Part shown: in pieces, positions 4,253 to 22,068 of the stretch | Position numbering within the stretch: the first letter of the stretch is position 1 | How the letters are laid out: the number at the start of each line of letters is the position of its first letter | Source of the DNA: Betaproteobacteria bacterium | Lineage (GTDB): Bacteria > Pseudomonadota > Gammaproteobacteria > Burkholderiales > CAIKXV01 | NCBI GenBank assembly: GCA_947458835.1 | Contig: CANHBC010000020.1 | Span: forward strand, 1-32,263 | DNA: 32,263 nucleotides | Reading direction: 5' to 3' | The notes under the pieces: model-generated | Told to the model about the DNA's origin: nothing | Seen by the model: the letters and a program-made list of their open reading frames with translations, nothing else | Databases searched by the model: none | Position numbers and translations under genes: made by a program

Positions 4253-4274
4253 GGGGTCAGGTCTTGCCTTTTGC
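4253..4274 (+). repeat. Dispersed 22-bp repeat, solo copy
   Basis: This is an exact copy of the 22-bp repeat that begins GGGGTCAGGTCTTGCC and ends TTTTGC. The same word occurs at 16781, 16808 (inverted), 17603 (inverted), 20991 and 22047 (inverted), with a one-mismatch copy at 20952. Here it sits alone in the 77-bp gap between two convergent genes, directly before a strong hairpin. Confidence 0.9.
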
Positions 4275-5791: not shown

Positions 5792-6478
5792 TCAATGGCG
5801 CGCGCCGGCGCGGATATGCTCGCAGGCGGTGGACAGGTCCATCACCTCGGCGTACTTCAGGTGCATGTCGAACAGGCTCGCCTTCTGGATCAGGTCGCAG
5901 CGGTCGAACACGCAGTCGGCCACCACCGCGACCGGGTAGCCGTGCGACCAGCCTTCGACCACGCTCGAGCGCACGCAGCCACTGGTGCTCTCGCCGACCA
6001 TGATCAGCGCATCGACCTGGAGTTCGTTCAGGAAGGCCGCCAGCGGCGTTCCGAAGAAGGCGCTTGCCCGCTTCTTGTAGATCACCAGTTCGCCGGGCTG
6101 CGGTGTCAGCTCCTGCTTGATCGTGTAGAGCGAGAGGTCGGGCTGGCGCCGCTTGCGGTTGGTCGGGTGGATCCGGCGCGGATCGGTCTCGAGGCGCGTG
6201 TCGTAGGTCACGTGGATTACCGGTACCCCGTTCTGGCGTGCGCAGGCGAACAGTTCCATCGTCGGCTGCAGCGCACGCCAGGCGTACTCGCCGCACGAGG
6301 CGGGGAATGATTCGATCAGCTCAGGTACCGGCTTCGCGCCGCCGTCGTACACCAGGTCGTAGAGGTCGACCGCGACCACCGCCAGCCGGCGCCCGGCGAA
6401 TGGCGCCAGCTTGCGACTGGCCATCAGCGCTGCGGTCGGGGCGTCGATCACGTCGGACCAGAGGCTTTCGGGATTCAT
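5792..6478 (-). CDS. Isochorismatase-family cysteine hydrolase (amidase-like)
   Basis: The 228-residue product belongs to the isochorismatase-like hydrolases, which include N-carbamoylsarcosine amidase, nicotinamidase and maleamate amidohydrolase. The triad is intact: Asp38 in LAVVAVDLYD, Lys135 or Lys136 before RASAFFGT, and the nucleophile Cys168 in ESTSGCVR. The family usually releases ammonia or CO2 and ammonia from an amide or carbamoyl group in the cytoplasm. It lies 38 bp after the amidohydrolase gene and 19 bp before its degenerate paralogue, within the minus-strand operon. A third paralogue at 16857-17570 shares many blocks (CGE/L..W, VPVIH, ESTSGCVR, LFDMH.KYA). A role as an amide-releasing step after ring opening is inferred from the neighbouring molybdenum hydroxylase. 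Confidence 0.9.
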   Translation of the reverse strand: MNPESLWSDVIDAPTAALMASRKLAPFAGRRLAVVAVDLYDLVYDGGAKPVPELIESFPASCGEYAWRALQPTMELFACARQNGVPVIHVTYDTRLETDPRRIHPTNRKRRQPDLSLYTIKQELTPQPGELVIYKKRASAFFGTPLAAFLNELQVDALIMVGESTSGCVRSSVVEGWSHGYPVAVVADCVFDRCDLIQKASLFDMHLKYAEVMDLSTACEHIRAGARH

Positions 6479-16714: not shown

Positions 16715-16780
16715 ACGGGCGGGAACGGGCGCAGTCAGAGAAACGGGCGGGTCATTGTGGTGGGATGGGGTCGGTGGGAT

Positions 16781-16830
16781 GGGGTCAGGTCTTGCCTTTT
16801 GCCTAGAGGCAAAAGGCAAGACCTGACCCC
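16781..16830. repeat. Perfect 50-bp palindrome made of two inverted copies of the 22-bp repeat
   Basis: Two 23-base arms (16781-16803 and 16808-16830) are exact reverse complements around a 4-base TAGA spacer. Each arm is the dispersed 22-bp repeat plus one base. It lies 66 bp after rlmB and 26 bp before an isochorismatase-fold gene. As RNA it would form a very stable 23-bp hairpin. It resembles an inverted pair of REP units mobilised by a RAYT. Confidence 0.95.
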
Positions 16831-16856
16831 ACAATTCGGAATGGAGGAAGCGCGTG

Positions 16857-17570
16857 ATGGCGGGATGGGATGCATTCCTGACCGAGCAGGACAAGCAGCA
16901 TCTGGCGGTGTGGGGCAAGCAGGCGAACGATGACTTCGGCGAGCGTCCGGTACTCCTGGTGGTGGATGTGTTCCACGCGGCGCTCGGCCACGAGCGCAAG
17001 CCGATCCTCGAGTCGATCAAGGATTGGCCGATGAGCTGCGGGCTGGAGGGCTGGGAGGCGGTGGACCGCATGGTCGGGTTGATCGCTGCCGCACGACGCC
17101 ACGCCGTTCCGGTGATCCACGCGCGCGCGCTGGCGGGATTTCCTAGCGACTGGTTCCGCCGGGGTGACAAGGGCGCACGCCGCAACCGCGCGGTAGACCA
17201 CCTGCCCCCGGAGATCCGGGCGCTTGCCAACGAGTTTGTGCCGCAGGTTGCGCCCCTGCCGGGCGAACTGGTGGTCGAGAAGGTCTGCGCGAGTGCATTC
17301 GCCGGTACGCCGCTGCTGCACCATCTGCGCGCGATCGGTGCCGACACGGTCATCGTCTGCGGAGAATCGACCAGCGGCTGCGTGCGTGCGGCAGTCGTCG
17401 ATGCGGTGACCTACCGGTACCGGGTGGGCGTGGTCGGCGAGTGCTGCTTCGACCGCACCCAGGCATCGCACTGGATGAACCTGTTCGACATGCACCAGAA
17501 ATATGCCGATGTCATCGACGTCGCAGCCGCATCCGACTACTTCGCCTCGGTCGGTCGACCGCGGGAATGA
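16857..17570 (+). CDS. Isochorismatase-family cysteine hydrolase (third paralogue, repeat-flanked)
   Basis: The 237-residue product has an intact Asp37 (LLVVDVFHAA), Lys142 (VVEKVCASAFAGT) and Cys175 (ESTSGCVR), so it should be an active amidase-like hydrolase of the same branch as the protein at 5792-6478. Shared blocks include VPVIHARAL/VPVIHVTYD and NLFDMHQKYADVIDV. GGAGGA at 16843-16848 serves ATG 16857; a GTG one codon earlier is equally possible. The gene is bounded by repeat copies at 16781-16830 and 17603-17624. It separates rlmB from the rpsF operon, which are commonly close neighbours. This makes it look like an inserted unit rather than an ancestral member of the block; that is inference. 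The substrate is unknown. Confidence 0.9.
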   Translation: MAGWDAFLTEQDKQHLAVWGKQANDDFGERPVLLVVDVFHAALGHERKPILESIKDWPMSCGLEGWEAVDRMVGLIAAARRHAVPVIHARALAGFPSDWFRRGDKGARRNRAVDHLPPEIRALANEFVPQVAPLPGELVVEKVCASAFAGTPLLHHLRAIGADTVIVCGESTSGCVRAAVVDAVTYRYRVGVVGECCFDRTQASHWMNLFDMHQKYADVIDVAAASDYFASVGRPRE

Positions 17571-17602: not shown

Positions 17603-17624
17603 GCAAAAGGCAAGACCTGACCCC
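17603..17624 (-). repeat. Dispersed 22-bp repeat, inverted copy
   Basis: This is an exact reverse-complement copy of the 22-bp repeat. It begins 32 bp after the stop of the isochorismatase-fold gene and ends 6 bp before the -35 box of the rpsF operon promoter. With the palindrome at 16781-16830 it encloses the gene. Confidence 0.92.
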
Positions 17625-19493: not shown

Positions 19494-20885
19494 ATGGTCC
19501 AGATCGTTTCTGCAGATTCGACCGACAGCGAACTGGCTGCGGTTCGCCATGCCCCGCACTCGATCGAAGCCGAGCAGTCGGTGCTCGGTGGCTTGCTGCT
19601 CGACAACAATGCGTGGGAGCGAATCGCCGATCTGGTCAGCGAGGGCGATTTCTACAGCGCAGACCACCGCACGATCTATCGGCACCTGGTGCGCCTGTTC
19701 GACGAGTCGCGACCGGCGGACGTGATCACCGTCGCCGAGAGCCTCGAGCGCAACGGCGAGCTCTCGCAGGTGGGTGGGCTGCCGTACCTGTCGGCGCTGG
19801 CCAACAACGTCCCCACCGCAGCCAACATCCGGCGCTACGCCGAGATCGTGCGCGAACGTTCGCTCATGCGCGAGTTGGCCCGTGTCGGTACCGAGATCGC
19901 CGAGTCAGCCTATGCGCCCGGCGGGCGCGCGGCCAAGTTGCTGCTCGACGAGGCCGAGGCAAAGGTGCTGGCGATCGCCGAAGCGGGCAAGCGGACGTCG
20001 CAGGGATTCCTCGACCTCAACGCGCTGGTGGCCGAGGTGGTCGAACGCATCGACCAACTGCACGCGCGTGGCGACAGCAGCGACGTCACTGGCGTGGCCA
20101 CCGGTTTTGCCGACCTCGACCGCGATACCTCGGGCATGCAGGCCGGCGACCTGATCATCGTCGCGGGCCGCCCGAGCATGGGCAAGACCGCGCTCGCGCT
20201 CAACATGGCCGAGCATGTAGCCCTGGTCGAGAAGCTGCCGGTCGTGGTCTTCAGCATGGAGATGTCCGGTACCCAGCTGGTCATGCGCCTGATCGGGTCG
20301 TCTGGGCGTATCGACCAGCAGCGGCTGCGAAGCGGCCGGCTGGAGGATTCCGACTGGCCGAGGCTGACCAGCGCGATCGGTGCGCTGACGCAGGCGCCGA
20401 TCCTGATCGACGAGACCGGTGCATTGACCGCGCTGGAACTGCGCTCGCGCGCGCGCCGAGCCGCGCGCAGCTTCGGTGGGCGGCTCGGGCTGATCGTCAT
20501 CGACTACCTGCAGCTGATGAGTTCCAGCGGCAGCGAGAACCGCGCGACGGAGATCTCCGAGATCTCGCGTTCGCTGAAGGCGCTGGCCAAGGAACTGCAG
20601 GTGCCGGTGATCGCGCTGTCGCAGCTCAACCGAAGTCTCGAGCAGCGGCCGAACAAGCGGCCGGTGATGTCGGACCTGAGGGAATCGGGCGCGATCGAGC
20701 AGGATGCAGACGTGATCCTGTTCATTTATCGCGACGAAGTCTACAACCCGGATTCCGCGGACAAGGGCACGGCCGAACTGATCATCGGCAAGCAGCGGAA
20801 TGGTCCGATCGGTACGGTGAAGCTCACCTTCCTCGGCAAGCACACCAAGTTCGAGAACTTCGCGCCCGTGCCAGGGCGGTTCTAG
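19494..20885 (+). CDS. dnaB: Replicative DNA helicase DnaB
   Basis: DnaB is the hexameric 5'-3' helicase at the replication fork. The 463-residue product has the N-terminal primase-binding domain (HSIEAEQSVLGGLLLDNNAW near 22-41), a linker, and the RecA-like domain from about 190. Walker A is GRPSMGKTALA near 225, LIVIDYLQLM lies near 332, and SDLRESGAIEQDADVILFIYR near 393-413 carries the DnaB-specific Arg/Ser region. The length is typical and no intein is present at the common P-loop insertion site. The ATG at 19494 gives a short, variable N-terminal tail as in relatives. It follows the S6-L9 operon, a common neighbourhood. Confidence 0.98.
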   Translation: MVQIVSADSTDSELAAVRHAPHSIEAEQSVLGGLLLDNNAWERIADLVSEGDFYSADHRTIYRHLVRLFDESRPADVITVAESLERNGELSQVGGLPYLSALANNVPTAANIRRYAEIVRERSLMRELARVGTEIAESAYAPGGRAAKLLLDEAEAKVLAIAEAGKRTSQGFLDLNALVAEVVERIDQLHARGDSSDVTGVATGFADLDRDTSGMQAGDLIIVAGRPSMGKTALALNMAEHVALVEKLPVVVFSMEMSGTQLVMRLIGSSGRIDQQRLRSGRLEDSDWPRLTSAIGALTQAPILIDETGALTALELRSRARRAARSFGGRLGLIVIDYLQLMSSSGSENRATEISEISRSLKALAKELQVPVIALSQLNRSLEQRPNKRPVMSDLRESGAIEQDADVILFIYRDEVYNPDSADKGTAELIIGKQRNGPIGTVKLTFLGKHTKFENFAPVPGRF

Positions 20886-20925: not shown

Positions 20926-21012
20926 CCCGATCGGGGTCAGGTCTCCCGATCGGGGTCAGGTCTTGCGTTTTGCCTCTGCGATCAGCGATCGGGGTCAGGT
21001 CTTGCCTTTTGC
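20926..21012 (+). repeat. Cluster of three direct copies of the dispersed repeat
   Basis: Three forward units lie side by side. The first is truncated (20933-20944, first 12 bases only), the second is full length with one mismatch (20952-20973), and the third is exact (20991-21012). The first two are part of an exact 19-bp tandem duplication (20926-20944 and 20945-20963, starting CCCGATCGGGG). All three are preceded by CGATC. This is the 5' boundary of the RAYT gene. Confidence 0.92.
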
Positions 21013-21173
21013 GTCGTCGCGAACGCCATGAAGAAGGGTCCGGCTGTCCGCCGTCCAGTTTCGCCCGGAAGCTCGCGTTTGGCGCCCTTGTCCTGCAGAC
21101 ACGTCCACGGCACGCTTTGACGAGGCGCCCCGCGGTGCGCCTGTCTCCTCAATGGCCGGGGTAACCACTTCCG

Positions 21174-22064
21174 ATGTCTCGTCCCCTGCGTGTCGAGTAC
21201 CCAGGCGCCGTGTACCACGTCACATCCCGAGGCGATCGCCGCGAGCCCATCTATCTGGACGCCCTGGATCGGCGAGCGCATCTTGAAGTCATTGCGCACG
21301 CGTTCGCCCGGTTCGACGCGCATGCCATGGCTTACTGCCTGATGGACAACCACTATCACTTTGTGATCCGGACACGGCGCGCCAACCTGTCACGCCTGAT
21401 GCGCCACGTCAACGGCGTGTACACGCAGCGGTTCAATCGACGGCACGGCCTTGTCGGGCATCTTTTCCAGGGCCGCTACAGCGCGATACTGGTCGATCGG
21501 GACGCCTACCTCTGGTCGCTGTGCCGCTACGTCGAGCGCAATCCCGTGGCCGCCCGGTTGGTGGATTCGGCCGCGGATTGGCCATGGTCCAGCCATCGTG
21601 CCCACGTCGCGCTGGCCGCTGCGCCCGATTGGCTGGATGTGGACGGTCTGTACGGATTCATCCTCGGTTATCCAGCGGTTACCGCCGCTCAGCGCAGGCG
21701 GGCGGCTGTGCTGCATCGCGAAAGCGTCGACGGTCAATCCGATCCGGATCTCATGCGATCCCGGCTGCGCCAGCAGGTGTTCCTGGGCGACGAACGATTC
21801 ATCGAGCGTACTCTCTCGCGGCAACGCGTGGGCTCCGCATCGCCCGACGGAGTCCCACGGGTGCAGACGCGCCGTCCGCGATCACTCGCCGCCGAACTCG
21901 GCGCCCACGCGGACCATGCCGCGGGCATGCACTCGGCCTACCGGCGCGGTGGGTTCACCATGGTGGAAATAGCGCGGCACGTCGGCCTGAGCGTTTCGCG
22001 CGTCAGTCGGCTGATCGCCGCTACAGAGGCGCGCATCGAGGTCGGGGCAAAAGGCAAGACCTGA
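21174..22064 (+). CDS. REP-associated tyrosine transposase (RAYT, Y1/IS200-like) with C-terminal HTH
   Basis: The 296-residue product is an HUH single-strand transposase of the TnpA-REP group, which recognises REP sequences. It starts RPLRVEYPGAVYHVTSRG. The HUH pair is His60-Tyr-His62 in MDNHYHFVI, and the probable catalytic tyrosine is Tyr119 in CRYVERNPVAARLV. After the Y1 domain, residues from about 245 form a helix-turn-helix (GGFTMVEIARHVGLSVSRVSRLI), an extension found in one RAYT subgroup. The last six residues (GAKGKT) and the stop codon are encoded inside the inverted repeat copy at 22047-22068. No clear Shine-Dalgarno precedes the ATG, so expression may be low. The gene is intact and could be active. 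Confidence 0.92.
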   Translation: MSRPLRVEYPGAVYHVTSRGDRREPIYLDALDRRAHLEVIAHAFARFDAHAMAYCLMDNHYHFVIRTRRANLSRLMRHVNGVYTQRFNRRHGLVGHLFQGRYSAILVDRDAYLWSLCRYVERNPVAARLVDSAADWPWSSHRAHVALAAAPDWLDVDGLYGFILGYPAVTAAQRRRAAVLHRESVDGQSDPDLMRSRLRQQVFLGDERFIERTLSRQRVGSASPDGVPRVQTRRPRSLAAELGAHADHAAGMHSAYRRGGFTMVEIARHVGLSVSRVSRLIAATEARIEVGAKGKT

Positions 22065-22068
22065 CCCC
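22047..22068 (-). repeat. Dispersed 22-bp repeat, inverted copy at the RAYT 3' end
   Basis: This is an exact reverse-complement copy. It overlaps the final codons and TGA stop of the RAYT gene and ends 14 bp before the stop of the convergent phoH gene. Confidence 0.92.

Follow-up and report, generated by a model that had tools for sequence, protein, structure and literature searches.

TIRtrons were named, in the available part of their description (Di Nocera, De Gregorio, and Rocco, 2013, PMC3733652), as elements with a RAYT-like gene and terminal inverted repeats (TIRs) carrying the motif GGGGWSAS, and in some of them the TIR families occur in dimers or clusters. According to the accessible portion of a later survey (Quentin et al., 2018, PMC6006769), 20 of 26 TIRYTs were assigned to TnpA_Y1 subclass 2.1, with helix-turn-helix (HTH) tails. 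This subclass is equated with Bertels group 1 in the survey's table, is second only to IS200 in size, and has genes in 14.9% of the surveyed strains; the same portion reports that no REP-like sequences were found for it and leaves its association with TIRs for confirmation. HUH cleavage, as set out in the available part of PMC8266576, yields a 5'-P-Tyr together with a 3'-OH, which may serve as a primer for synthesis or as the attacking group in strand transfer, and the enzymes of relatives cut at CT or CA.

The window, meaning the whole stretch of 32,263 nt that was analyzed, very probably contains a TIRtron. The exact 22-mer GGGGTCAGGTCTTGCCTTTTGC occurs six times in it, at 4253(+), 16781(+), 16809(-), 17603(-), 20991(+), and 22047(-). 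The copies at 20991 and 22047 flank an ORF (21174-22064) in inverted orientation, the latter overlapping its last codons, and are the terminal inverted repeats of the transposase gene; the other copies lie between predicted ORFs. The original prediction had described this arrangement correctly, with all copies intergenic by ORF prediction save that at 22047 and two inverted copies on either side of an HUH/Y1 transposase gene. Its positions also held for five of the exact copies and for the degraded ones (at 20952, a 22-mer with one mismatch; at 20933, a truncated one), and its 16808 is corrected to 16809. Tandem duplications at TIR borders, termed scars here, have the form X-P-X-TIR, in which a host flank X is doubled along with a truncated TIR P. 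The features of the window are as follows (X, P, and period in nt).

4253 to 4274, + strand: single TIR between convergent ORFs (22-mer search, ORF context)
16759 to 16786, + strand: scar, GGTGGGAT plus GGGGTC doubled in tandem (16759-16772 and 16773-16786; period 14, X=8, P=6)
16781 to 16830, no strand: head-to-head TIR pair forming one 50-nt hairpin mini-element (-29.6 kcal/mol, z -10.5)
17603 to 17624, - strand: single TIR upstream of rpsF (22-mer search; the same gap in G009 is without a TIR)
20926 to 20944, + strand: scar unit, flank CCCGATC plus truncated TIR GGGGTCAGGTCT (period 19, X=7, P=12)
20945 to 20973, + strand: second CCCGATC flank, then the one-mismatch TIR at 20952-20973 (copy search)
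20991 to 21012, + strand: upstream TIR of the transposase, exact (repeat search)
21174 to 22064, + strand: HUH/Y1 transposase (TIRYT), 296 aa (Pfam Y1_Tnp, E=9.2e-12)
21351 to 21359, + strand: HUH motif H60-Y61-H62 (alignment of 15 sequences)
21528 to 21530, + strand: presumed catalytic Tyr119 in YVERNP (alignment of 15 sequences)
21951 to 22019, + strand: C-terminal helix-turn-helix, residues about 260-282 (HTH_23, E=0.0025; model helices)
22047 to 22068, - strand: downstream TIR, exact, supplying the last codons and stop of the transposase (repeat search)

Residues H60, Y61, H62, Y119, N123, and P124 of the transposase were invariant in the alignment of 15 sequences. The best PDB match of an AlphaFold2 model of the protein (mean pLDDT, 78) by Foldseek was 4er8, a REP-associated transposase (TM score, 0.73 by target length and 0.43 by query length), and the NCBIfam REP_Tyr_transpos model was narrowly missed (73.6 versus a cutoff of 80 bits). 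The predicted C-terminal HTH is present, weakly by sequence (the HTH_23 hit, at E=0.0025, does not reach the Pfam cutoff) and as model helices at residues 263 to 270 and 274 to 293 (pLDDT mostly 82 to 92). The original reading of the locus as a RAYT/REP system agrees with the RAYT-like transposase, for which 4er8 is the best match, and with the presence of its own repeats; it fails on the repeats themselves, which have neither a GTAG/GTGG foot nor a REP hairpin. One other relative was detected in the genome carrying the window (G000) at an E value of 0.01 or better, a paralogue on contig C140 that is 33% identical. This second RAYT (L119) lies amid nine listed copies of a repeat of its own (105-206 and 1845-2832), one of them an overlapping weak match, and the repeat (e.g., AAACCCGTGTCTGACCCGGGATT) is partly self-complementary and has a GGGTCAG core in common with the window family. 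The transposase of G009 (L149, C137) matches residues 1 to 258 only, in an open frame of 267 aa, and its HTH end may be lost.

A search of G000 (3.76 Mb, 257 contigs) with a tolerance of up to 3 mismatches placed the 22-mer at 79 sites, 63 of them exact, and the reversed 22-mer, used as a control over the same 3.76 Mb, gave 0 matches; the repeat is thus abundant genome-wide, as had been expected. GGGGTCAG, which agrees with GGGGWSAS, was present in the 63 exact copies. The copies grouped into 37 clusters, of which 35 were located between ORFs according to a codon-based ORF call (17 convergent, 13 tandem, 3 divergent, and 2 at an edge), with one inside an ORF and one over the end of the transposase gene. 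A TIR pair with a 43-nt gap was also seen in frame within an error-prone DNA polymerase gene (L114:1059-1145 on contig C238 of G000; NCBIfam NF004225 for L114). This pair is at the same place in four species (L114, L152, L172, and L184), among which the tails differ and the inner sequence differs in part.

Folding of a single 22-mer gave -0.8 kcal/mol (z, 0.29), and the original observation that the repeat has no internal hairpin of its own was upheld; the monomer lacks one because two head-to-head TIRs together make one hairpin of 22 to 25 bp. All G000 clusters with both orientations read + then -, with GGGG outward and tails inward. Inverted pairs with up to 120 nt between the arms numbered 28 in G000, and the addition of 33 from the sites sampled in G005, G007, and G009 brought the total to 61 over four genomes, pairs less than 20 nt from a locus end being left out. 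The arms of these pairs are near-identical and the loops vary. The most frequent gap length was 9 nt (21/61 pairs, with other lengths in 40/61), and 13 of the 16 nine-nucleotide gaps with three perfect closing pairs contained a GNA loop, or TNC on the other strand (P = 7e-10 versus an expectation of 1/8, if loops are independent), as did 18 of all 21 nine-nucleotide gaps. Orthologous or neighboring sites contribute some of the loops and scars (e.g., three scars in L077), and the counts are not fully independent; counts of gaps, flank sharing, and scars cover all 79 copies in G000 and sampled sites only in G005, G007, G009, and G003. Loops of the form d(C-GNA-G) are unusually stable in DNA. Relics in L192 (G002) and in L194 and L287 (G010) included the mini palindrome GGGGTCAG-t-CTGACCCC, and GGGGTCA-ggca-TGACCCC and GGGGTC-gcggca-GACCCC were further relics at the same set of loci; the mini palindromes resemble hairpins that have undergone internal deletion, and neither genome has a close RAYT.

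The mini-element at 16781-16830 sits between rlmB and an isochorismatase-like gene, and the corresponding rlmB-side gap contained no element in G009 and G003 and a diverged element in G010. In four genomes, the interval from rlmB to rpsF lacked the isochorismatase-like gene (window 16854-17570): G005 and G007 had a TIR cluster in its place, and G008 and G001 had no TIRs there. The window also has an inverted repeat of 60 nt at 77% (5820-5879 and 17477-17536), whose arms probably belong to two related hydrolase genes. The gap between dnaB and phoH contained the transposase in G000 and TIRs alone in G005, neither transposase nor TIRs in G001, G006, G008, G009, and G010, and TIRs at contig ends in G007; in G002, G003, and G004, no sequence spanning the gap was recovered. 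G005 and G007 have their transposases, 67 to 69% identical, on other contigs. One clean pair of empty and filled sites was found in all, in which CTCCCC is directly followed by GGTGTGGG in G010 (empty) and the order is CTCCCC-CGAG-hairpin-GGTGTGGG in G005 (filled), with CCCC on both sides leaving the exact joint ambiguous. The dnaB gene was interrupted by about 1.26 kb, possibly an intein, in G006, G007, G008, G009, and G010 (L133, L135-L137, and L142), and no such interruption was seen in G000 (window 19494-20885), G005, and G001.

Genomes of the genus with a close RAYT (E below 1e-80; n = 5) carried 79, 31, 72, 43, and 22 copies, and those without one (n = 6) carried 0, 6, 0, 14, 3, and 6 copies, the 14 being in G006 (84% complete). 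Copy number tracked the close RAYT within the genus (exact Mann-Whitney test, P = 0.0022, species not being independent points); several of these genomes are 83 to 89% complete, and the counts are of the 22-mer with this tail at up to 3 mismatches, so that variants may be missed. The proposed association of RAYT presence with copy number was therefore found within the genus (22 to 79 versus 0 to 14 copies) and did not extend to G064, a genome of another family (93% complete) with 26 copies and only a distant RAYT (E, 3e-24), in whose surroundings the window repeat was not found. Outside the genus, copies were seen in 12 of 89 genomes; a RAYT match at 1e-20 was obtained in 43 genomes, of which 30 had no copy of this exact tail. 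The TIRs of relatives have other tails, where examined. The close transposase was present as one copy per genome in G000, G003, G005, G007 (plus an adjoining 35-residue piece), and G009, and several near-identical full copies in one genome were found in none of the 11 genus genomes searched. G078, a relative in the order from another family (contigs C14-C98), had five full-length-like close relatives at E values below 1e-90, as well as weaker pieces and two short pieces with identical scores, unlike the single copy of the genus.

Among genes for related proteins, 64 of 72 had a TIR core in the 320 nt upstream, and in 47 of these it lay 40 to 62 nt before the start. The consensus of this core was GGGGTCAGGTCTTG, part of which is fixed by the search pattern itself, and the tail was variable. 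The core set contained 73 rows (the window and 72 of 80 loci, the other eight being omitted by hand because their flanks were short or their match lengths odd), and 72 of the rows were free of internal stops. The tail GGGGTCAGGTCTTGCCTTTTGCCTC recurred at L304 and L321, in two MAGs that bear the labels Rhodospirillales and Kiloniellaceae. Inverted repeats were found at 46 of the 79 RAYT loci scanned (of 80; L309, with a match reaching the locus end, was excluded), 38 of them with the core, and that of L354 is an unrelated longer repeat. Tail distance was correlated with protein distance for both the N-terminal (r = 0.38) and C-terminal (r = 0.43) parts (0/999 permutations), with partial correlations of 0.26 for the C terminus and 0.14 for the N terminus. 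Reading of the tail by the HTH is not claimed, the C-terminal partial value being only somewhat above the N-terminal one.

Clean scars were present at 28 of 188 TIR boundaries in the genus and at 0 of 686 control GGGG positions, with a shared flank of 7 nt in 13/28 and P of 6 to 8 nt in 13/28; the second scar region of the window spans 20926-20963. Beyond the genus sample, RAYT loci gave 29 scars at 212 cores (22/85 loci, some with two or three) and 0 at 2,885 controls, and P was exactly GGGGTCA in 14/29. When the two sets were pooled, P was 7 nt in 20/57 scars and 6 to 8 nt in 31/57, and the flank was mostly 5 to 9 nt. The junction was without an extra shared base in 36/57 scars, about chance level, so that slippage homology is not indicated. 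Other systems duplicate flanks too: the REPIN clusters of SBW25 are described, in the available part of PMC3116915, as tandem repeats with flanks included.

Left and right host flanks were inverted copies of each other over at least 3 nt in 21/61 pairs (permutation mean, 2.6; maximum, 10 among 10,000) and over at least 5 nt in 9/61 pairs (permutation mean, 0.5; maximum, 4), with no symmetry in 17/61. The base preceding GGGG was rarely A, being C or T at 53/65 boundaries in G000, and it was G or T at 41/45, 25/26, and 13/13 boundaries in G005, G007, and G009, respectively. Some of the inverted flanks could be older palindromes, such as CGGTGGGGGTC...GACCCCCACC in G010 at the L168 site. At L107, the right flank AGTATAGGG is ancestral, which favors the left ACTT as the copied flank, but the left side does not align; at L095, L161, and L164, divergence of the empty sites was too great to separate ancestral from copied flank. 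A mobile unit that carries flank between loci was rejected, as different loci had their last 5 or 6 flank bases in common at counts that column shuffles also reached. Only in G000 did agreement over the last 4 bases surpass that in each of the 500 shuffles (36 versus a mean of 17 and a maximum of 32), and CGAG was present at one G005 insertion and at the transposase TIRs of G005 and G003; together these are a hint of flank carried between loci.

These observations are probably best explained by a TIRtron with genome-wide, nonautonomous mini-element progeny of two TIRs each and by nicking and joining on single-stranded hairpins. A single-stranded TIR pair would fold into a long hairpin, which rather than the single 22-mer would be the spreading unit; the enzyme would nick about 7 nt 5' of GGGG, the end would be joined just after GGGGTCA (near its border with the following G), and brief extension of the nicked 3' end before joining would produce the tandem scars. 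Confidence in this nick-and-join model at -7 and +7, drawn from genome comparison, falls just short of the halfway mark, and the break-point after GGGGTCA is one base off the cut between C and A or between C and T that is expected from relatives. The inverted flanks may arise when the hairpin is extended from its own 3' end over a few nucleotides of the joined flank, a fold-back step that is suggested tentatively. The wider proposition that transposases with GGGGTCAG TIRs are active single-strand nick/join enzymes with one cut some 7 nt 5' of GGGG and another directly after GGGGTCA, spread as long hairpins with ultra-stable C-GNA-G caps, and leave inverted, not direct, flank duplications through 3' fold-back copying ahead of the second join is likewise doubtful as a whole, if possible.

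The scars, inverted flanks, and mini palindromes might instead have been made by replication slippage or template switching at palindromes together with SbcCD-type attack, the transposase having only brought the TIRs. Perfect hairpins of 22 to 25 bp are classic substrates for this (8 to 16 bp is cited as the SbcCD minimum in the available part of PMC3733652), and relics with arms of 6 to 8 nt were found in G002 and G010, both without a close transposase. However, scar ends recur across many taxa (flank mostly 5 to 9 nt; P of 6 to 8 nt in 31/57), and junction homology is absent in 36/57 scars, which leaves this account rather unlikely. It is improbable that the hairpins are bidirectional transcription terminators under host selection with little current mobility: 17 of the 33 classifiable G000 clusters are between convergent ORFs and flank pairs lengthen the stem (e.g., AAAGACGGG...CCCGTCTTT in G005), whereas a T-run is absent from most flanks, by eye in the sites displayed, and recent spread is suggested by the 63 exact copies in one genome and by the different tails of sister species.

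A classical RAYT/REP system of the GTAG type would account for the fold, which is that of the E. coli REP transposase, and for an own repeat family with REPIN-like head-to-head pairs; with a 22-mer that lacks a GT[AG]G foot, a monomer without a hairpin, a C-terminal HTH, and a gene bounded by TIRs, it is very improbable here. Equally improbable is a plain IS200/IS605 insertion sequence accompanied by MITE derivatives, to which the HUH/Y1 transposase with flanking ends, the short derivatives, and the five full-length-like relatives in G078 would conform. The multicopy transposase and Y---Q motif of IS200/IS605 were not found: there is a single close copy per genome in G000, G003, G005, G007, and G009, with the 33% paralogue in addition in G000, and the motif is YVERNP (Y---NP) as opposed to Y---Q for IS200 in the accessible portion of PMC6006769.

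The TIRtron with hairpin progeny resembles the described TIRtrons and TIRYTs in its RAYT-like HUH/Y1 gene between inverted TIRs unrelated to GTAG REPs, with GGGGTCAG fitting GGGGWSAS in a family of 79 copies, 37 clusters, and 28 inverted pairs; it differs in its GNA loops, tandem scars, and inverted flanks, which are not found in the available part of that description (PMC3733652). Among the papers listed by literature searches, GNA loops or border scars in TIRtrons came up in no title or abstract, which is no proof of absence; of those listed for TIRYTs, PMC3733652 and PMC6006769 alone were relevant, and of those listed for the motif GGGGTCAGGTC as text, none dealt with bacterial repeats, judged by title and abstract start. 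REPIN/RAYT groups 2 and 3 share the HUH/Y1 enzyme and head-to-head pairs as the apparent mobile unit, as far as the available parts of PMC3116915 and PMC8266576 go, whereas this element has no GTAG foot, no monomer hairpin, and an HTH tail. The likeness to IS608 and ISDra2 (IS200/IS605) is in the fold, and the differences are one close copy per genome, Y---NP, and single ends without a hairpin. Judged by motifs, the element fits the features of TnpA_Y1 subclass 2.1: NH[VYF]H, FQ/W[EQ], and Y[IV]..NP are represented by NHYH, FQ, and Y---NP (YVERNP), with a long HTH_23-like C-terminal extension (weak by Pfam) and few copies per genome; in contrast to the survey of that subclass, the TIRs form a dispersed family here. 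The element class is thus already known, and the GNA loops, scar rule, and inverted flanks are absent from the available parts of the descriptions compared. For subclass 2.1, the genomes suggest a substrate in the form of a TIR hairpin, often GNA-capped, with probable cut sites at about -7 and +7.
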